This document shows, piece by piece, positions 21,066-42,733 of a stretch of DNA of 42,848 nt. Origin of the DNA: Chloroflexia bacterium SDU3-3 (GTDB taxonomy: Bacteria > Chloroflexota > Chloroflexia > Chloroflexales > Roseiflexaceae); NCBI GenBank assembly GCA_009268125.1, contig WBOU01000025.1:1-42848 (forward strand). Direction: 5' to 3'. The notes under the pieces are model-generated. The model saw only the letters and a list, made by a program, of their open reading frames with translations, did no database searches and was not told the origin of the DNA. Numbering within the stretch: the first letter of the stretch is position 1; each line of letters opens with the position of its first letter. Position numbers and translations under genes: made by a program.

Positions 21066-21074
21066 GGGAGCTGC

Positions 21075-21104
21075 AAAAAAGCCTGGGGCATTGCGGCCCC
21101 AGGC
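21075..21104 (-). terminator. Terminator for the VWA-1 gene (also SDR side)
   Basis: Nine-bp GC arms (21081-21089 and 21096-21104). On the minus strand the stem is followed by TTTTTT (21075-21080), 22 bp past the VWA-1 stop. Confidence 0.85.
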
Positions 21105-21126
21105 TTGAAGAGTCTCTCATGCTCGA

Positions 21127-22623
21127 TCAGTAGTATGGGCACGGGCTGCCGCCGAGCTGTAAATAGAGCGGCTGCGCTGTGGTGCTGCCGCTGATGGTGA
21201 GCGGCACGCGCTCGGCCCCGCTGGCCTCGGGGGCCAGCCCCACCGACTGATACACACGCGAGATGCCATCCTCGGACTTGTAGCCCACGCTTGCCCTAAC
21301 TAAGTAATCACCATCGGGGATGTTACTGAAGCTGTAGCGCAGCTGGCCCGTCTGCGGGTCGGCAGTGATAGCGGATTCTCCCATATAGGTATTGTCGCTG
21401 GCGCGGAAGAGGTGAACCTTGTTCCATCGCGCTGGATCGAGAGCAGGTGTATGTGCGGCGTCGATGCTGCTAACCCATTCGCTCGACACATGCTCGATGC
21501 ATACGTCAGAAGGCGCTCGACGGTCGCTCATGATTGTGCTGATAATTTGTGGCGTATTGTAGAAGTATGTGTTGGAGAACGTGCTGGCAATATTTTCCAT
21601 CCCAAGTTCTTGGTAGGTGAGCAGCGGGATGGTATATATCTGGACACTAGGGATGGCGACCTTGATGTTATTAGCCTCGATGAGGCTGGCGGTGATTGGG
21701 CGATACTGCTGATGCTCGTTGCTATAGCCAATCTGGCATTCGGTGTTGTCCAGTGCGGCCTGCCGTGTGAGATCGGGGCACACATCGCGGGCATAGTTGG
21801 TCGTGCCATCCAAGAATACGTTGGCCGGACCATCGGCGATGAACATAACCACAGGTCGATAGGTTTCGCCGTTGGGCGCGGTGGTGGGGGCCACCTGCAG
21901 CACCTGCAGCGCTTTGCTGATGGCCTGCGCGTGGGCCGAGCCGCCCTGGGTGCGGTAGGGGTCGTTGGCGTACATGCCCGCCTGAAGCACGATACTGCGC
22001 AGCGTGGCGGCGTCGCTGGTCCAGCCGCTGGCGGGCAGCACCTGGGTGTTGCCGCTGTAGCCGCGGCCCGAGCTGAAGGCGATGATCCGCATGCTATCGT
22101 TGGGGTGCAGTTGGTCGATCAGCTCGTTCACCAGCTGCTTGGCCTTGTAGATGCGGCGCTCAGTCGGCTCGTGCCAGGCCGCGTTGGCCCCGCCTGTGCA
22201 CTGGGTGCTGTAGGGCAGCGCGCTGGGCGAGAGCGACTCGCAGCGTACATTTGCGCCGGACAGCGTGCCTTCGCCGTCGGGCGTGTAGCTCATCGAGCCG
22301 CTGACATCCAGCACCACCAGAAACTGGTATGGCGTCTCGGGCGTGGTGACGATCTCGTGGTAGGCAGGCCGCAGCGCCACCGCGCCGCTGAGCGTGCGGG
22401 GTGGTACGGGGGTGGCTGGCTCGCCAATGTCGGGCGTGATGGTTGGGATGGCGGTTGGGTCGACACTTTCGGGCGGCGGAAGAAAGATCTCGGGCGTGGG
22501 TGTGGGGTCGGTCGGCTCCTGGGCGAAGGCGGAGGGCACCGCGCCGCCATTCCCCAGCCCAACGAGGGCCAGGGTGCTGATCAGCGCAGCTACCCCAAGG
22601 ATGCCGGAACTTCTTCTTTTCAT
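21127..22623 (-). CDS. Secreted VWA-domain protein 1 (with C-terminal beta domain)
   Basis: A 498-residue exported protein. It has a signal peptide (1-35, ending AFA), a Thr/Pro-rich spacer (37-76), a VWA domain (about 98-370) and a C-terminal beta-sandwich-like domain (about 375-490) ending in GGSPCPYY. The metal site is complete at Asp106-x-Ser-x-Ser (DVSGS), with ADGPAN later. The features shared by all four paralogues are: DGEGTLSG and a Cys just after the metal motif, (S/T)ERRIYxAKQ, IIAFSSGRGYSGN, ADGPANxFLDG, ARDxCPxL and CQIGYS...RPIT. VWA domains mediate metal-dependent protein binding. No ribosome-binding site is obvious. It is the last gene of the array and has a terminator. Confidence 0.88.
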   Translation of the reverse strand: MKRRSSGILGVAALISTLALVGLGNGGAVPSAFAQEPTDPTPTPEIFLPPPESVDPTAIPTITPDIGEPATPVPPRTLSGAVALRPAYHEIVTTPETPYQFLVVLDVSGSMSYTPDGEGTLSGANVRCESLSPSALPYSTQCTGGANAAWHEPTERRIYKAKQLVNELIDQLHPNDSMRIIAFSSGRGYSGNTQVLPASGWTSDAATLRSIVLQAGMYANDPYRTQGGSAHAQAISKALQVLQVAPTTAPNGETYRPVVMFIADGPANVFLDGTTNYARDVCPDLTRQAALDNTECQIGYSNEHQQYRPITASLIEANNIKVAIPSVQIYTIPLLTYQELGMENIASTFSNTYFYNTPQIISTIMSDRRAPSDVCIEHVSSEWVSSIDAAHTPALDPARWNKVHLFRASDNTYMGESAITADPQTGQLRYSFSNIPDGDYLVRASVGYKSEDGISRVYQSVGLAPEASGAERVPLTISGSTTAQPLYLQLGGSPCPYY

Positions 22624-22830
22624 GTTTTTACCGTGTTCTAATACATTCCCAACGGAGAAGGGAGCGTAGTTTGGCGGACGATAGGCTGTGTGGGAATAGT
22701 CTCATTATAGCGTCATAGCACCGCAGGCGCAAACAGCAGTTCTATGTGCCAAGATTTCTAGGCATTAAGGCAACAACAAGGCAACGAATACCACGAGCAT
22801 TTGAATATCTGTTTGTTGTGTGGGGCGACA

Positions 22831-22853
22831 TAGGGGGCAATGCCTGCCCCCTA
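22831..22853. repeat. Stem-loop downstream of VWA-2
   Basis: TAGGGGGCA (22831-22839) and TGCCCCCTA (22845-22853) are perfect arms with a 5-nt loop, 17 bp past the VWA-2 stop on the minus strand. It could act as a terminator, although no T-run follows. Confidence 0.5.
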
Positions 22854-22869
22854 CGTGGTTCCGAAGCCC

Positions 22870-23811
22870 CTATGGGTAGCTGGCTGCGATCTGGGCCAGC
22901 ATATCGGGCGAGGTGTAGCGGTAGGCCATGGCGGGCGTGGAGGCCACATCCACCATTCCCATGTCTTCGGTCTTGTTGGTCATCGTCACCGTGTACAGAT
23001 CGACCGCGTAGGTCTGTTTCAGCTGGGCGGCGGCGCTGATCAGCTGGGTGATTGGGCGGTCCATCTTGTATGTTTCCGAGTACCCGATCTGGCAGGTGGC
23101 GGTATTCTGCGCTTGGCTCGCGGTAAGGCTGGGGCAGATATCTCTGGCTGTGTTTGCCGTCCCATTGGCGAAGATATTGGCGGGGCCGTCGGCCACCAGC
23201 ATCACCACGGTGCGGTAGGTGGCCCCTTCGGGTGTGGTGGTGGGCGCTACGGCCAGCGCATCCTGTGCCTTGCTGATGCCAAAGGTGTTGGCCGAGCCGC
23301 CGTTGGTGATATAGGGGTTGGCGTTATAGCTGCCGACGGTGAGTAGGCTAGCCTTGAGCGCGTCGTGGTCGGATTCCCAGCCGCTGGCAGGAGCGATAGT
23401 GGTGTTGCCGCTGTAGCCGCGCCCCGAGCTGAAGGCGATGATCTCCATTCGATCTTCTGGCCGCATCACATCGATCAGATTGCTGACCATCTGCTTCGCG
23501 AGGTAGATGCGGCGCTCGTTCTCCACACGCCAGAACGAGTTGGGTCCAGAACAACCGTCTTTATACCTTAGATCTCTTGGTGCATCCCACTCGCATTGGT
23601 AATCAATGTTAGAGACTGTGCCTTCGCCATCAACATTCCAGCTCATCGAGCCGCTGACATCAAGGATGATCAGGTACTGTTTGGGCTGGCTGTCGGGCGG
23701 CGCGTCGGTGGAGGTGCGGGCGGTGGCGCTGGTGTCGAGCGCGCCGAGGCCGAGGGTGGTGCAGATGCCGCAGGCGATGAGCGCGGTGCGCAGGGCGGAT
23801 GTGGGGCGCAT
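22870..23811 (-). CDS. Secreted VWA-domain protein 2 (short form)
   Basis: A 313-residue exported protein: signal peptide (about 1-32, ATA-R), short spacer, and VWA domain to the end. The metal motif is DVSGS (Asp51) followed by MSWNVDGEGTV. The same landmarks as in VWA-1 follow (NERRIYLAKQM, IIAFSSGRGYSGN, VADGPANIFANG, ARDICPSL, CQIGYS, RPIT). It stops at AQIAASYP, where VWA-1 and VWA-4 continue into a beta domain, so it is either a natural short form or has lost its C-terminus. A perfect AGGAGG lies before the ATG. Confidence 0.88.
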   Translation of the reverse strand: MRPTSALRTALIACGICTTLGLGALDTSATARTSTDAPPDSQPKQYLIILDVSGSMSWNVDGEGTVSNIDYQCEWDAPRDLRYKDGCSGPNSFWRVENERRIYLAKQMVSNLIDVMRPEDRMEIIAFSSGRGYSGNTTIAPASGWESDHDALKASLLTVGSYNANPYITNGGSANTFGISKAQDALAVAPTTTPEGATYRTVVMLVADGPANIFANGTANTARDICPSLTASQAQNTATCQIGYSETYKMDRPITQLISAAAQLKQTYAVDLYTVTMTNKTEDMGMVDVASTPAMAYRYTSPDMLAQIAASYP

Positions 23812-23985
23812 AGAATCCTCCTGTTTGCTAGAGAAGTGGGTGAGGGGGTTGTTCCCTTGCCGATAGTATACCGTTAGGAGATTGAATGCACTGATAGTGA
23901 GAAAAGATGAAGCTGATAGTTAGGTCAATGCTACTCCTCGCGAGATGATACTACGCTTATATCTTTATGGATAAGTGGATAAGGA

Positions 23986-24010
23986 GATGCGGTCGAAGAT
24001 CGACCGCATC
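23986..24010. terminator. Stem-loop downstream of VWA-3
   Basis: GATGCGGTCG (23986-23995) and CGACCGCATC (24001-24010) are perfect 10-bp arms, 54 bp past the VWA-3 stop. It is terminator-like without a T-run. Confidence 0.5.
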
Positions 24011-24063
24011 ATCTGCTACCCGCAGGCCACGAGACGCAGATCTCATAGGTGCCAGAAGGTAAA

Positions 24064-25035
24064 TTAGCGAGATCGGTCTGCCGTAGCGCTGCTACCTGGC
24101 TGTATGCCGTACGAGGTCTGAAGTCTGATCTGCTCGATGGTATATGTCGGCTGCTCGGATGTGTAGACCATGGATGGCGATGATGCCACGCGCACCAAAC
24201 TTTCGGTGTTGTGATCGCTTGCGTCGATGGCGAAGATCTGGATGTTAGGATGGCTCTGCTGGAACGCCTGCGCCGCCTGGATCATGGCGGTGATTGGCCT
24301 TGGTGTGCCATCCTCGGTCACGCCAAGGTGGCAGTAGCTGGTGGTTTCGGCCTGGCCTGGGGTGAGGTAGGGGCAGCTATCCTCGGCGGTGTTGGGCGTG
24401 CCGTCGAGGAATATGCTGGCCGGGCCATCGGCGATGATAATCACCACGGTGCGCGCGTTGACCTCGGCGGGCGCGGCGTCGGCCACGGCGGCGAGCGCGG
24501 CGATGCCCTGGGCGTTGGCCGAGCTGCCCTGGGTGCGGTAGGGGTTGCCGCCCACCTTGCCCGCGTGCAGCACGGCGTCCCGGAGCGTGGCGGTGTCGCT
24601 GCTCCACCCGTTGGCGGGCAGCACGGCCACGTTGCCGCTGTAGCCGATGTCGCCCGAGAAGGCCACGATGCGCATGCTGTCCTCTGGCGCTTTCAGTTCG
24701 ATGAGGGTATTGAGCATCTGCTTGGCGGTGTAGATGCGCCGCTCGGTCGGCTCGCGCCAGGCGCTGGACACGCCGCCGCTGCATGTGTCCACCAGCGGCA
24801 GATTGGTGAAGTGACCCTCCTGCTCGCAGCGCACATCGACGCCGTCCAGCGTGCCATCGCCGTGGATGTTGTAGCTCATCGAGCCGCTGACGTCGAGCGC
24901 GATCAGGTAGTTGATCGGCACGTGTGTGACGATAGGGGGCGCGGCAGCGCGGCTGTGGGCGGTTGCGCTGCCGCCAAACCCAACGATCGTGGCGGTGCAG
25001 ATGCTAGCTACGGCGGGAAGATGATGACGGATCAT
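24064..25035 (-). CDS. Secreted VWA-domain protein 3 (short form)
   Basis: A 323-residue exported protein with signal peptide (about 1-27), metal motif DVSGS (Asp48), then MSYNIHGDGTLDG. Landmarks are the same as in its neighbours, with local differences: IVAFSGDIGYSGN for FSSGRGYSGN, and AEDSCPYL for ARDxCPxL. It ends shortly after the VWA domain with a Ser/Thr-rich tail (GSSATADRSR) and lacks the beta domain. AGGAG precedes the ATG. Each gene in this set appears to have its own ribosome-binding site and leader of roughly 150-250 bp. Confidence 0.87.
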   Translation of the reverse strand: MIRHHLPAVASICTATIVGFGGSATAHSRAAAPPIVTHVPINYLIALDVSGSMSYNIHGDGTLDGVDVRCEQEGHFTNLPLVDTCSGGVSSAWREPTERRIYTAKQMLNTLIELKAPEDSMRIVAFSGDIGYSGNVAVLPANGWSSDTATLRDAVLHAGKVGGNPYRTQGSSANAQGIAALAAVADAAPAEVNARTVVIIIADGPASIFLDGTPNTAEDSCPYLTPGQAETTSYCHLGVTEDGTPRPITAMIQAAQAFQQSHPNIQIFAIDASDHNTESLVRVASSPSMVYTSEQPTYTIEQIRLQTSYGIQPGSSATADRSR

Positions 25036-25189
25036 AGGAGTGCTCCTTTTGCGTTATGTTTGGCACAGTCAGCACTATAGAAAGCTCTTCCTGCCTCGTA
25101 CACCCATCTTCCTGCCGTTCGCTGTATGCTTTCTGGTGGCTCTATTTCACTTGGAGAAGCGTATCAGCGATTGTTTACGCTCATCCCGA

Positions 25190-26569
25190 TTATGCGCCGC
25201 ACACATCGTCGGTGCTGGCCTTTTGGATGAAGAGCGGCGGCACGGTCTGGCCGTCAAAGGCGAGCGTGATTGCGCTGGCCCCCGCTCCGTTATCCAGCCC
25301 AACAGCGGTGTACTCGCGGGTCTCGCCATCAAGGCCAGTGTAGGTGATTGCGGCGCTCAGCTGGTAGGTGCCCGCCGCGACGCCCGCGAGGCTGTAGTTT
25401 ATGCCACCCTGCTCATCCACTACAATAGGCATCTGGGCCACGGTCGAGATGCCATCCTCGCTGCGCAGTGTGACGCTGCCCTGTATAAGCCGCTCGGGGA
25501 TGATTGAGCCAGTCCAGTAGCTACCATCTGTGCATATTTCTTCAAGCGCGATGCGGACGAGCTGGTTAGGATCGCTATAGTGGGCGTAGAGATCTGGGGT
25601 GGATGCCATATCGGCGAATCCCATAGTGTCTGATGTATGCGCCATGTGTATGATGGAGATATCTCCCCAGTCGAGATATAGGTATTGTTTCATGAGATTT
25701 GTCTGATTCAGCATCTCGGTGATAGGCCGATTTCGGCTATACATTGGTGAGTACCCGATCTGACAGGTGCTGCTGTTGATCGCCTGCCTCAGCGATAAGT
25801 TCGGGCAGATGTCGCGAGCGAAATTTTGGCTCCCGTCTAAGAATGTATTGGCTGGCCCATCAGAGAGCATAATAATCTTGGGGAGATATGGGCGACCATC
25901 GGGAGTATAGTAAGGGCTATACCCAAGGAGCGTTCTTGCAGCATAGATTGCCTGCGCGTGGTTTGCATTGCCCTGGGTCAGATAGGGATCGTTTGCGTAG
26001 GCCCCGATGGCCTGAAGAGAATCTTTGAGCGTCGTCTTATCGCTTGTCCAGCCAGATGCGGGCTGGGCAACAACATTGCCAGTGTACCCTCTGCCCGATG
26101 CGAAGGCGATGATCCGCATCGTATCATCTGGCGGCATCGCGTCGATGAGATTTCGGATAGCTTCTTTTGCAAGATATATTCGCCGCTCGCTCTCAACATG
26201 CCATGGGGCGTTGGGGATGGTGACGCTTGAGCCGCTTTGGCAGCGATCATAGTAGGCGAGGCTGCTGGTCCCTTCCCACTCGCAGTTGACGTTTTCTCCG
26301 GTGGCGCTGAGCGTGCCTTCTCCATCCATGTTGTAGCTCATCGAGCTGCTCACATCGAGCAAGATGGTGTATTGGTATGGTTCGTGGTCTAGATACCGGG
26401 CCTGAGATGTGTAGAGGTGAATCTGGCCGCTGCTGGCGGTCGATGTGGCGCTTGGGGCATTTGTGCGGGCGAGGCGGTCTTGAATGGCGCTTGATGGCGG
26501 CAGTATCATCAGCATCGAGCAGAAGCTGATGTGGGCTAGGGCCATCGGGATGGGGATCTGTTGGTGCAT
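25190..26569 (-). CDS. Secreted VWA-domain protein 4 (with C-terminal beta domain)
   Basis: A 459-residue exported protein. The N-terminus is hydrophobic (ALAHISFCSMLMILPPSSA) and is probably a signal peptide. The metal motif is DVSSS (Asp72), a conservative change from DVSGS that still fits DxSxS. The body shares ESERRIYLAKE, IIAFASGRGYTGN, SDGPANTFLDG, ARDICPNL, CQIGYS and RPIT. The C-terminal beta domain (about 345-450) includes LRSEDGIS and pairs with the one in VWA-1 (YKSEDGIS). AAAGGAAA lies upstream. Base use is less GC-rich than in VWA-1 to VWA-3, suggesting a different age or history. Confidence 0.87.
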   Translation of the reverse strand: MHQQIPIPMALAHISFCSMLMILPPSSAIQDRLARTNAPSATSTASSGQIHLYTSQARYLDHEPYQYTILLDVSSSMSYNMDGEGTLSATGENVNCEWEGTSSLAYYDRCQSGSSVTIPNAPWHVESERRIYLAKEAIRNLIDAMPPDDTMRIIAFASGRGYTGNVVAQPASGWTSDKTTLKDSLQAIGAYANDPYLTQGNANHAQAIYAARTLLGYSPYYTPDGRPYLPKIIMLSDGPANTFLDGSQNFARDICPNLSLRQAINSSTCQIGYSPMYSRNRPITEMLNQTNLMKQYLYLDWGDISIIHMAHTSDTMGFADMASTPDLYAHYSDPNQLVRIALEEICTDGSYWTGSIIPERLIQGSVTLRSEDGISTVAQMPIVVDEQGGINYSLAGVAAGTYQLSAAITYTGLDGETREYTAVGLDNGAGASAITLAFDGQTVPPLFIQKASTDDVCGA

Positions 26570-37802: not shown

Positions 37803-38676
<874 letters not shown>

Positions 38677-38712
38677 ACTAGCGGGCCGCCGGATGCCCGA
38701 AGGAGGCGCGCA

Positions 38713-39675
38713 ATGGAACCCACCGAACCCCGACCGAACAGCGAGTGCCAAGGCAGCTGTATCCCGAAGGTTGATCTCTCGAACCACCCGTGCTACAGCC
38801 GCGCCGCGCACTTTCGCTTTGGGCGCATCCATGTCCCGGTCGCGCCGCGATGCAATATCCAGTGTAACTACTGTATTCGCAAGTACGCCTGCCCGAATGA
38901 GAACCGCCCTGGCGTCACCATGCGCGTGATCTCGCCCGACGAGGCCATGAACACCATCCGCGACGCGGTGGCCAAGGAGCCGCGCATCCGGGTGCTAGGC
39001 GTGGCTGGCCCGGGCGACGCGCTGGCCAACGACCCGACCATCGAGACCTTCGCCCGCGCCAAGGAGGAGTTCCCGCAGCTGACCCGCTGCATGTCCACCA
39101 ACGGCCTGCTGCTGCCCGACCGGATCGACGACATCGACCGCGCTGGTGTGACGGCCCTGACCATCACGATCAACGCGGTGGACCCCGCGATCGGCGAGCA
39201 GATCTACGCGCACGTGCGCTACAAGGGCGTGACCTACCGCGGGCGCGAGGCCTTCGCACTGCTGCACAGGCAGCAGATGGAGGGCCTGCGCGAGGCGGCG
39301 ATGCGCGGCATGGTGGTGAAGGTGAACTCGGTGCTCATCCCCGGCGTGAACGATAGGCACCTGGTGGAGGTGGCGCGCAAGGTGCGCGACCTGGGCGCGT
39401 ACATCATGAATATCATCCCCATGCTGCCGCTGGCGAAGTTCAAGGACATCCCCGAGCCTTCGCTGGCCGATGTGAACCGCGTGCGCAATGAGTGCGGCCA
39501 GATAATCCAGCAGTTCCGCAACTGCACGCGCTGTCGCGCCGATGCGATCGGCGTGCCCGGCGAGGAGGGCAGCGGCTGTGGCGCGGGCGCGGGTGCGGCC
39601 AAGGAGAAGACCTGCACGCCCAAGTTTATGGGCGGCAAGGCTATCGTGCGGCTGAAGCCGACCGACCCGATCTAG
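38713..39675 (+). CDS. nifB: FeMo-cofactor biosynthesis radical SAM protein NifB
   Basis: A 320-residue radical SAM enzyme making the NifB-co (8Fe-9S-C) precursor. The SAM-cluster cysteines are Cys47, Cys51 and Cys54 (CNIQCNYC). Cys27 in HPCYS and the pair Cys271/Cys274 (NCTRCRADAIG) match ligands of the two extra iron-sulfur clusters. There is no C-terminal NifX-like domain, so this is the short form also found in archaea. A Gly/Ala/Cys stretch near 286-301 is unusual. GAAGGAGG precedes the ATG. It lies between nifH and nifD, a typical order for Chloroflexia. Confidence 0.95.
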   Translation: MEPTEPRPNSECQGSCIPKVDLSNHPCYSRAAHFRFGRIHVPVAPRCNIQCNYCIRKYACPNENRPGVTMRVISPDEAMNTIRDAVAKEPRIRVLGVAGPGDALANDPTIETFARAKEEFPQLTRCMSTNGLLLPDRIDDIDRAGVTALTITINAVDPAIGEQIYAHVRYKGVTYRGREAFALLHRQQMEGLREAAMRGMVVKVNSVLIPGVNDRHLVEVARKVRDLGAYIMNIIPMLPLAKFKDIPEPSLADVNRVRNECGQIIQQFRNCTRCRADAIGVPGEEGSGCGAGAGAAKEKTCTPKFMGGKAIVRLKPTDPI

Positions 39676-39889
39676 GCTGTGTGCTGGCTGGGACCGCCAG
39701 GGCACTGCCCGCTCTGGCGCTCGATGGCGAGCACCCACATCCTACGAGCACGTTGACCGATCAGATAGAACCTCATCTGCGCGAGAGCAAAAAGACGACG
39801 ACGAGCACACATTTATGCAGTGTCGCAGCGCAAAAACAATGACGTATTGCTGTTTTTTTCTCTTGCTGTTGCGGAAGCGAAGGAAGATC
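39676..39889 (+). other. nifB-nifD intergenic leader
   Basis: The 214-bp space has a CGCCAG/CTGGCG stem (about 39701-39720) and a T-rich part (39851-39860). No gene. It may mark an mRNA processing site or internal promoter that raises nifDK relative to nifHB; no clear -35/-10 pair was found. Confidence 0.4.
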
Positions 39890-41299
39890 ATGAAATTTAA
39901 ATGTAACATTGCGCTGACTGAGCGCGAAGGCCATATCGCGATCAAGGGCCAGGATGGCTGCCAGCGCAGCGATGGCTCGAACTGCTTTATCAAGAGCAAT
40001 GTGCCCACCACCCCGGGCGACATGACCGAGCGCGGCTGCACCTACGCCGGATGTCGTGGCGTGGTCGGCGGGCCGGTGAAGGATGTCATCCAGCTCACCC
40101 ACGGCCCGATCGGCTGCGCCTTCTTCTCGTGGGGCTACCGCCCGCACCTGGCCGAGACCGACTTCCACATGAAGTACACCTTCGTGAGCGACATGAACGA
40201 GTCGAACATCGTGTTCGGCGGCGAGAAGAAGCTGCTGCAGTGCATCGTGGAGGCCGCGCAGGAGTTCCCCGAGGCCAAGGGCGTGTTTGTCTACAACACC
40301 TGCTCCACCGCGCTGATTGGCGACGACGGCAAGGATGTGGCCAAGCAGGCGACGGAGATCATCGGCAAGCCCGTGGTATTTTTTGAGTGCGAGGGCTTCC
40401 GCGGCGTTAGCCAGTCGGCGGGCCACCACGTGGGCAACGAGACGATCTTCAAGGAGCTGGTCGGCTCGGTCGAGCCGGAGGGCGACTTCAGCAACTCGAT
40501 CAACATCATCGGCGACTACAACATCAAGAACGACATCCGCACCTTCGAGCCGCTGTTCGAGGCCATGGGCCTGCAGATCATCGCGCGCTTCACCGGCAAC
40601 GTCTCGGTCGACGACCTGAAGATCATGCACAAGGCCCAGCTGAACGTGGTGCACTGCCAGCGCTCGGCCACCTACATCGCCGAGATGATGCGCGACAAGT
40701 ATGGCACGCCCTTCATCGACGTGACGCTCTGGGGCATTAAGCACATGTCCAAGGCCCTGCGCGACACCGCCGCCTTCTTTGGGCTAGAGGACCGGGCCGA
40801 GGAGGTGATCGCCGCCGAGCTGGCCAAGATCAAGCCGAAGATCGACTACTACCGCGAGCGCTTCGCGGGCAAGACGGCCTTTGTCTACCAGGGCGGCCCG
40901 CGCTCGTGGCACTGGATCGAGCTGCTGCGCGAGATCGGCATCGAGGTGATGTACGCCGCCACCACCTTCGGCCACGAGGACGACTACCAGAAGATCTTTA
41001 GCCAGATCAGCGATGGCGCGCTGGTGGTGGACAACCCCAACGTGCCCGAGATCGAGGAGATCCTGCGCGAGTGCAAGCCCGATCTGTTTATCTCGGGCAA
41101 CAAAGAGAAGTACGTGGCCTACAAGCTGGGCGTGCCGTTTGTGAACGGCCACACCTATGACACCGGCCCCTACGCGGGCTTCTCGGGCATGGTCAACTTT
41201 GCCCGCGACATCGACAAGGCGCTGCACGCGCCGATCTGGGGCCTGCTGTCGCAGCAGGGCCGACCTGTGCCGTCGTCACTTTCAGCCGCAGGAGACTAA
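39890..41299 (+). CDS. nifD: Nitrogenase catalytic component alpha chain, divergent
   Basis: A 469-residue subunit. ATG 39890 is chosen because GAAGGA precedes it; an ATG at 39815 would add 25 unrelated residues. P-cluster cysteines: Cys50 (RGCTYAG), Cys76 (GPIGCAFF), Cys138 (NTCSTALIGDD). Cofactor ligands: Cys256 (VVHCQRS) and His421 (NGHTYDTGPYAG). Gln175 and His179 (SQSAGHH) and Arg84 match residues around the cofactor in standard NifD. The length is nearer VnfD than the longer NifD forms, and GGPRSWHW resembles alternative nitrogenases, yet no delta-subunit gene (vnfG/anfG) lies between it and nifK (3-bp gap). With all ligands kept it should hold a FeMo-like cofactor; metal type is not determined by sequence alone. 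Confidence 0.93.
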   Translation: MKFKCNIALTEREGHIAIKGQDGCQRSDGSNCFIKSNVPTTPGDMTERGCTYAGCRGVVGGPVKDVIQLTHGPIGCAFFSWGYRPHLAETDFHMKYTFVSDMNESNIVFGGEKKLLQCIVEAAQEFPEAKGVFVYNTCSTALIGDDGKDVAKQATEIIGKPVVFFECEGFRGVSQSAGHHVGNETIFKELVGSVEPEGDFSNSINIIGDYNIKNDIRTFEPLFEAMGLQIIARFTGNVSVDDLKIMHKAQLNVVHCQRSATYIAEMMRDKYGTPFIDVTLWGIKHMSKALRDTAAFFGLEDRAEEVIAAELAKIKPKIDYYRERFAGKTAFVYQGGPRSWHWIELLREIGIEVMYAATTFGHEDDYQKIFSQISDGALVVDNPNVPEIEEILRECKPDLFISGNKEKYVAYKLGVPFVNGHTYDTGPYAGFSGMVNFARDIDKALHAPIWGLLSQQGRPVPSSLSAAGD

Positions 41300-41302
41300 G
41301 CC

Positions 41303-42733
41303 ATGAGCGTGATCACCAAGCAGCAGCGCGCAGTCGCCATCAACCCCAGCCGCGCCTGCGCCCCCATGGGCGCGATGCTGGCCAACTTCGGCATCCACGG
41401 CGCGCTGACCATCAACCACGGCTCGCAGGGCTGCGCCACCTACCCGCGCCACCAGATGGCCCGCCACTTCCGCGAGCCGATCGAGGTGGGCACCACGTCG
41501 CTCACCGAGCGCACCACGGTCTACGGCGGCAAGGAGAATCTGATCGCCGCGCTCAAGAACATCTACGAGCGCTTCCACCCCACCATGATCACGATCTGCT
41601 CGACCTGCCTCTCCGAGACGATCGGCGATGACATGATGGCGATTGTGGACGATTTCCGCAGCGCCTACCCCGAGATGGATGTGCCGATCTTGGCCGTCAA
41701 GACGCCATCCTACGTGGGCACGCACATCACCGGCTTCGACAGCTACCTGAAGCAGCTGCTCACCGAGTTCCCGCAGCGCCGCGCCAGGGGCGAGACCAAC
41801 GGCAAGGTCAACATCATCCCCGGCTGGGTGAACCCCGGCGACATCCGCGAGCTGAAGTCGATCGCGCACGAGATGGGCGTGGATGCCACCATCCTCACCG
41901 ACTACTCCGACACGCTGGATGGCGGCTTCTACACGCCGCGCCCGCACTTCCCGCCCGGCGGCACCACGCTGGACGAGGTGCGCGACTGCTCGCGCGCGCT
42001 GGGCACGCTGGCCATTCAGCGCTACGTGGGCGGCGAGGCGGCCAAGGTGCTGCAGCGACGCCACAACGTGCCCGCGCACATCCTGCCCATGCCTATCGGC
42101 CTGTACAACACCGACATGTTTGTGCAGACGCTCACTAAGGTCTCGGGCAAGCCGGTCTCGCCCGCGCTGGAGAGCGAGCGGGCCAGGCTGCTGGACGCCC
42201 TGGTGGACACCCACATGTTCACCACCGGCACCCGCGCGGCCATCTACGGCGACCCCGATCTGGTGGAGGGCCTGACGCGGCTGGTGGCCGAGATGGGCAT
42301 TCAGCCCGCCTACGTGCTCTCGCCGTCCGACTTCGAGGCCTGGGGCAAGCAGATGCAGGCCATGACCGAGGAGCTGGGCGTAGAGAGCGAGATCTTGCTC
42401 AAGGCCGACCTGCACGAGCTGCACAAGCGGATCAAGGCCAGCCCGGTCGACCTGATCATCGGCCACTCGAAGGGCAAGTTCATCGCCGATGCCGAGGACA
42501 TCCCGCTCATCCGCGCGGGCTTCCCGGTAGAGGATCGGGTGGGCTACCAGCGGCGCTCGGTGGTGGGCTACAAGGGCGCGATCGCGCTGGTGGATGAGAT
42601 CACTAACGCGCTGCTGGCCCGCAAGGGCACCAGCGTGATCAGTAGCACCCTGCTGACCCTGGATGTGGAAGGCCCCACCAACATTCCCCTGAGCGGTGGC
42701 GGCTGTGGCGGCGGCTGTGGCGGCCAGAACTAG
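41303..42733 (+). CDS. nifK: Nitrogenase catalytic component beta chain, with Gly/Cys tail
   Basis: A 476-residue subunit. P-cluster cysteines are Cys19 (SRACAPMGAML), Cys44 (GSQGCATYPRH) and Cys102 (CSTCLSETIGDD). TPSYVGTHITGFD follows. It lacks the roughly 50-residue N-terminal extension of classical NifK, as VnfK and AnfK do. The C-terminus ends in SGGGCGGGCGGQN, two cysteines in a glycine-rich tail, which I do not know from standard NifK and which may bind a metal or be disordered. AGGAG precedes the ATG, and only 3 bp separate it from nifD. A terminator follows. Confidence 0.93.
   Translation: MSVITKQQRAVAINPSRACAPMGAMLANFGIHGALTINHGSQGCATYPRHQMARHFREPIEVGTTSLTERTTVYGGKENLIAALKNIYERFHPTMITICSTCLSETIGDDMMAIVDDFRSAYPEMDVPILAVKTPSYVGTHITGFDSYLKQLLTEFPQRRARGETNGKVNIIPGWVNPGDIRELKSIAHEMGVDATILTDYSDTLDGGFYTPRPHFPPGGTTLDEVRDCSRALGTLAIQRYVGGEAAKVLQRRHNVPAHILPMPIGLYNTDMFVQTLTKVSGKPVSPALESERARLLDALVDTHMFTTGTRAAIYGDPDLVEGLTRLVAEMGIQPAYVLSPSDFEAWGKQMQAMTEELGVESEILLKADLHELHKRIKASPVDLIIGHSKGKFIADAEDIPLIRAGFPVEDRVGYQRRSVVGYKGAIALVDEITNALLARKGTSVISSTLLTLDVEGPTNIPLSGGGCGGGCGGQN

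Follow-up and report, generated by a model that had tools for sequence, protein, structure and literature searches.

Four tandem genes for exported VWA proteins

The window analysed here, a stretch of 42,848 nucleotides from Chloroflexia bacterium SDU3-3 (contig C25 of the genome), contains an array of four minus-strand genes, which we call heads 1 to 4. Head 1 (P0001, 21127..22623) is a protein of 498 aa with a Sec signal peptide, a Thr/Pro linker, a VWA domain at residues ~96-370 and a C-terminal beta domain at ~371-498. Head 2 (P0002, 22870..23811, 313 aa) and head 3 (P0003, 24064..25035, 323 aa) possess a signal peptide and a VWA domain and have lost the beta domain, which is again present in head 4 (P0004, 25190..26569, 459 aa). 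All four frames are intact with coding-type GC3, and each N-terminus has a hydrophobic, signal-peptide-like stretch, the weakest being that of P0004, with no Lys or Arg ahead of it. Pairwise, the heads share 41-50% identity over the VWA part with E-values of 1e-50 to 1e-87 (BLASTP), far beyond chance. The open reading frames, these identities and the signal-like N-termini bear out an earlier note on this DNA, which had described a local expansion of four exported VWA paralogues, two with and two without a C-terminal beta domain.

The Pfam VWA_2 matches of the heads are at or just below the gathering score. The curated NCBIfam families gave no match above cut-off for the window heads, and no convincing sequence relatives were found in the PDB. 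An AlphaFold2 model of P0001, built from a 12-row alignment, has a mean pLDDT of 73 with most of the VWA core at 75-96. It matches VWA domains with Z-scores of 17-19, the closest being those of anthrax toxin receptors, of integrins (I domains) and of the bacterial pilus-tip adhesins Mfa5, SpaC, PilB, GBS104 and PitA. The five MIDAS ligands (D-S-S-S-D, with Ser for Thr) are kept in P0001-P0003, and P0004 has Ala at the position of the metal-ligand Thr, which is found in all 35 TadG heads of the tree described below. A DGP motif is present in all four window copies versus DGV (or DGL/DGI) in the TadGs.

Four cysteines, presumably paired as Cys128/142 and Cys282/296 (P0001 numbering), are found in every head, which supports the disulfides outside the cell suggested by the earlier note. 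Two further ones, Cys375 and Cys495, occur only in the two heads with a beta domain and are missing exactly in the two without it, which fits a putative third disulfide, with these two as partners, that would tie down the beta domain. Likewise, the array does share the motifs beyond the metal site that had been listed: P0001 and P0002 have the complete set, P0004 shows slight changes (GRGYTGN, SDGPANTF), and P0003, with the most diverged motifs of the four, has it in degraded form (HGDGT, DIGYSGN, ADGPASIF, CHLGVT).

The genes are separated by gaps of 154-252 bp. On the minus strand, the gap between heads 2 and 1 (22624..22869) contains a strong hairpin, and a TATAAT box lies upstream of head 1. 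The gap between heads 3 and 2 (23812..24063) has a strong hairpin as well, and head 2 is preceded by a good ribosome-binding site. After head 1 there is a hairpin that resembles an intrinsic terminator (21070..21110, minus strand), with an 11-bp stem followed by a T run (-22.7 kcal/mol, z -4.0). Given the hairpins in two gaps and this good terminator, the array is not obviously one operon, and separate transcription of the heads is likely from these predicted signals. A pattern scan for promoters and terminators was uninformative and did not list the 21070-21110 hairpin, though it is clearly present; the scanner seems to overlook sites of the hairpin plus T-run type.

A TetR regulator and a short-chain dehydrogenase lie on one flank of the array, an AraC-type regulator and catabolic genes on the other. 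These neighbours are metabolic and regulatory, with no export or pilus gene among them. Further along the window, at 37855-42733, nitrogen fixation genes are found in a row: nifH, a gene at 38713-39675 that is possibly nifB, nifD and nifK.

Relationship to the TadG of the same genome

A whole-genome search gave a single further match, a fifth copy on contig C19. It is a TadG, the large minor pilin at the tip of the Tad (type IVc) pilus, of 861 aa, with an N-terminal Tad/TadG pilin segment (Pfam: PF13400) and the VWA domain in its C-terminal half. The window proteins align to its residues ~426-858 with 34-40% identity, beta domain included, and the C-terminal ~130 residues align with the TadG beta domain. 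The motifs that the earlier note had called specific, including GRGYSGN and CQIGYS...RPIT, are shared by the array as stated, but they are present in this TadG as well. Similarly, its remark that no partner lies nearby is true of the immediate neighbourhood, but the informative relative sits on another contig.

The Tad genes on C19 are arranged in the order two TadE genes, TadG, a kelch protein, RcpC/CpaB, a response-regulator/TadZ, TadA, TadB and TadC. With this gene content the Tad-pilus operon is complete, and genes for two Flp pilins lie on a different contig. An exported kelch-repeat protein 3' of TadG is found in the Tad operons of two genera (L007:1081-3681 and L040), making it a candidate for a partner that TadG has at the tip or on the surface in Chloroflexales.

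The genome has a single TadG and a single Tad locus, and PF13400 matches are restricted to this TadG and a TadE-like neighbour; the Pfam search found none in P0001-P0004. The pilin module of ~400 residues is absent from heads 1-4, with an ordinary signal peptide and a short linker in its place. Together with the alignments this shows that the window proteins are paralogues of the TadG VWA head in which the pilin module has been swapped for a predicted Sec signal peptide and a short linker. As both the pilin module and a position in the tad locus were tested and are absent (the heads are on C25, the locus on C19), heads 1-4 are not TadG proteins; they belong to the homology group of the TadG head, and their architecture is new. 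The AlphaFold2 model of the full TadG was poor (mean pLDDT 53), and no interface between head and pilin segment was read from it.

We assigned the loops around the metal site from predicted secondary structure and compared their conservation with that of the remaining protein. Among the four heads the identity is 0.40-0.52 in the metal-side loops versus 0.37-0.48 in the rest, and between the heads and their own TadG it is 0.42-0.52 versus 0.27-0.40. Loop conservation at or above the level of the remaining protein points to one common kind of ligand or partner and not to diversifying recognition, so the variable recognition proteins considered in the earlier note are unsupported.

Repeated detachment of the TadG head in Chloroflexales

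We searched 400 genomes of the phylum with a profile of the head and found matches only in Chloroflexales. In a search of 82 genomes of this order, 49 gave matches, the majority in frames about as long as TadG (840-930 aa). The named records with heads all belong to Chloroflexota and include Roseiflexus MAGs, Chloroflexaceae MAGs and Chloroflexi bacterium AL-N1. For three Chloroflexales, long pili together with only Tad-pilus genes, including tadEEG, have been described (PMC7332563). The earlier note had named as evidence against itself a profile search that places all copies in a known family of described role with no local expansion; the family is indeed a known one, but the local expansion and a changed architecture are present.

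Free heads, in which a signal peptide replaces the pilin module, are found in at least five other genomes (G037, G055, G013, G060 and G006, the last being AL-N1). The G013 free head runs into a contig end and those of AL-N1 are broken frames; the intact set of the window is the largest among the genomes seen. In the G013 protein (L041:2-865) the metal motif has decayed to DAGAA with the remainder kept, which suggests a metal-independent role.

The head is also found in other arrangements. L080 (G069) has two heads in a single chain of at least 1207 aa, and L084 (G079, on the same contig as L061) is an exported protein of 1456 aa which reuses a TadG-type head. AL-N1 (L040) has two adjacent sets of a small pilin-like gene, a full TadG and a kelch protein beside one TadA/TadZ/RcpC set, and thus a duplicated tip module.

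In a phylogeny of 44 heads, which predates the G060 sequence and does not include it, the window proteins group together as a single clade of four (support 100/97). The free heads of G037 and G055 nest inside the TadGs of their own family, and those of G006 group with the TadGs of G006. The test of one common origin for all free heads gave a strong rejection (p-AU 6e-37), which means that the head has split from the pilin module several times. The TadG of the window's genome has as its nearest neighbour the TadG of another genus (100/99), and a clade of the window heads with their own TadG is rejected (p-AU 0.001). Since the own TadG has its closest partner in another genus, the window lineage looks older than the split of the genera. 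The window set is thus probably an old paralogous lineage and not a simple copy of the present TadG, and horizontal transfer within the family may also have been its source. Phage or plasmid cargo was rejected as an origin, as a tblastn search with P0002 against phage and plasmid collections gave no match.

Inside the window clade the branching is ((2,4),1),3, which implies that copies 2 and 3 lost their beta domains independently of each other. The ends do differ, as noted earlier, but a family that changes its ends is better seen as one with two losses of a domain already present in TadG. Downstream of P0003 there is a weak out-of-frame trace that may be a remnant of the lost beta domain (3 of 300 shuffles score as high); no convincing remnants were found in the gaps after P0002 or P0004.

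Proposed role and known systems

Judged from sequence, we lean slightly towards the heads being secreted adhesive proteins with metal-dependent ligand binding that act in the sheath or matrix of the filament, with docking on the Tad tip as the main alternative mode. They would be exported as folded, disulfide-bonded and metal-binding VWA domains, would presumably recognise ligands of the class that the TadG head binds, and without the Tad_N helix they could not polymerise into a pilus on their own. The surface adhesins proposed in the earlier note were a reasonable guess and are plausible from sequence. The Ala at the metal-ligand Thr of P0004 would count against metal-dependent binding. The heads of TadG/CpaL have been proposed as tip adhesins or mechanosensors (PMC12607857, PMC12075869), and TadG/KilN as the modular backbone of the tip (PMC12075869). 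In Caulobacter, CpaL has a regulatory or mechanosensory role (PMC12607857), so adhesion is uncertain even for the parent TadG.

No cell-surface anchor was recognised in heads 1-4, and an adhesin role therefore needs retention by the sheath or a partner. Such retention near the cell is the sole further assumption of a pilus-independent adhesin, which we consider the most likely reading.

The genome also has a recurrent tail, [YF]LP[LIM][IV]xR followed by a stop, which forms the C-terminus of at least 16 predicted proteins and in many cases follows a Thr/Pro-rich stalk. One example lies just right of the window (G000:C25:46153-46176; L008, L110), with 15 others elsewhere in the genome, and the reversed pattern has 0 matches. 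NCBIfam already lists this YLP-box as a putative sorting motif (NF050076, NF053834). In the free heads L021, L024, L077 and L039 of other genomes, a YLPL-like box directly follows the signal peptide (e.g. CVYLPLVVVAG) and is not C-terminal; the NCBIfam YLP models did not match L021, L024 or L077. The window heads have no such box, except perhaps IFLPPP in P0001.

The free heads might instead be recruited non-covalently to the Tad tip complex (TadE/TadG), as PilY1 is to its pilus, and provide several alternative tips for one pilus. The genome has a single Tad system, whose tip protein carries the same head and shares loops near the metal site, such as GRGYSGN and CQIGYS...RPIT. A VWA tip protein that is not a pilin is known in PilY1 (PMC12607857), and the Kil pili of Myxococcus have alternative minor-pilin tips, four in number (PMC12075869). 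However, both the Kil tips and TadG carry pilin helices that the free heads do not have, no docking segment was identified in the free heads, and their genes are neither in nor near the Tad locus. We hold docking to be possible but rather unlikely. Its generalisation, that Chloroflexales repeatedly turn the Tad tip head into free exported proteins which dock on the same pilus as interchangeable non-pilin tips on one machine, is a still more doubtful, speculative extension.

The loops on the ligand side that the heads have in common with TadG would also be expected of soluble decoys or modulators, which compete with the TadG head for a ligand or partner and so tune pilus adhesion or surface sensing; but four copies as diverged as these look like specialisation and not like dosage, and we consider this role improbable. 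Duplicated, functionless TadG fragments on their way to being lost would account for the broken free heads of AL-N1, for the loss of the beta domain from heads 2 and 3 and for the possible remnant downstream of head 3. Debris of this kind is very improbable for the window, where four of four frames are intact with signal peptide, conserved cysteines and coding-type GC3 and three of four keep the metal site, since neutral decay over a divergence to 41-50% identity would have broken the frames.

In the part of the literature covered by our search we found no description of free TadG heads. The repeated detachment suggests that the head is useful without its pilin module. The free heads would be natural, soluble and anchor-free TadG heads in several copies, with and without the beta domain and one with an altered metal site. 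They thus offer a ready-made set for finding the ligand of the Tad-pilus VWA head, which is hard to study in TadG apart from pilus assembly.

The closest known system is the VWA form of TadG/CpaL in Tad (type IVc) pili, which has the VWA head, beta domain, cysteines and motifs of the window heads (34-40% identity with the own TadG head). The window heads differ from it in that the Tad_N helix and the ~400-residue pilin module have given way to a Sec signal peptide, and in their position outside the tad locus and their four tandem copies. PilB of Streptococcus sanguinis, Mfa5, SpaC and GBS104 have the VWA fold of head 1 (Z 16-18), but with less than 20% identity to it, and each is a subunit of a pilus that brings anchoring modules of its own. 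By analogy only, the heads resemble PilY1/PilC1 of type IVa pili, which are exported, non-pilin VWA proteins associated with pili; docking of the heads is putative, and the C-terminal part of the window proteins is a short beta domain of the TadG type. With the Kil pilus tips of Myxococcus (KilN) the heads have in common the notion that a single Tad pilus may use alternative heads, several in number, but the Kil tips retain their pilin helices and their genes form tip gene clusters (PMC12075869).
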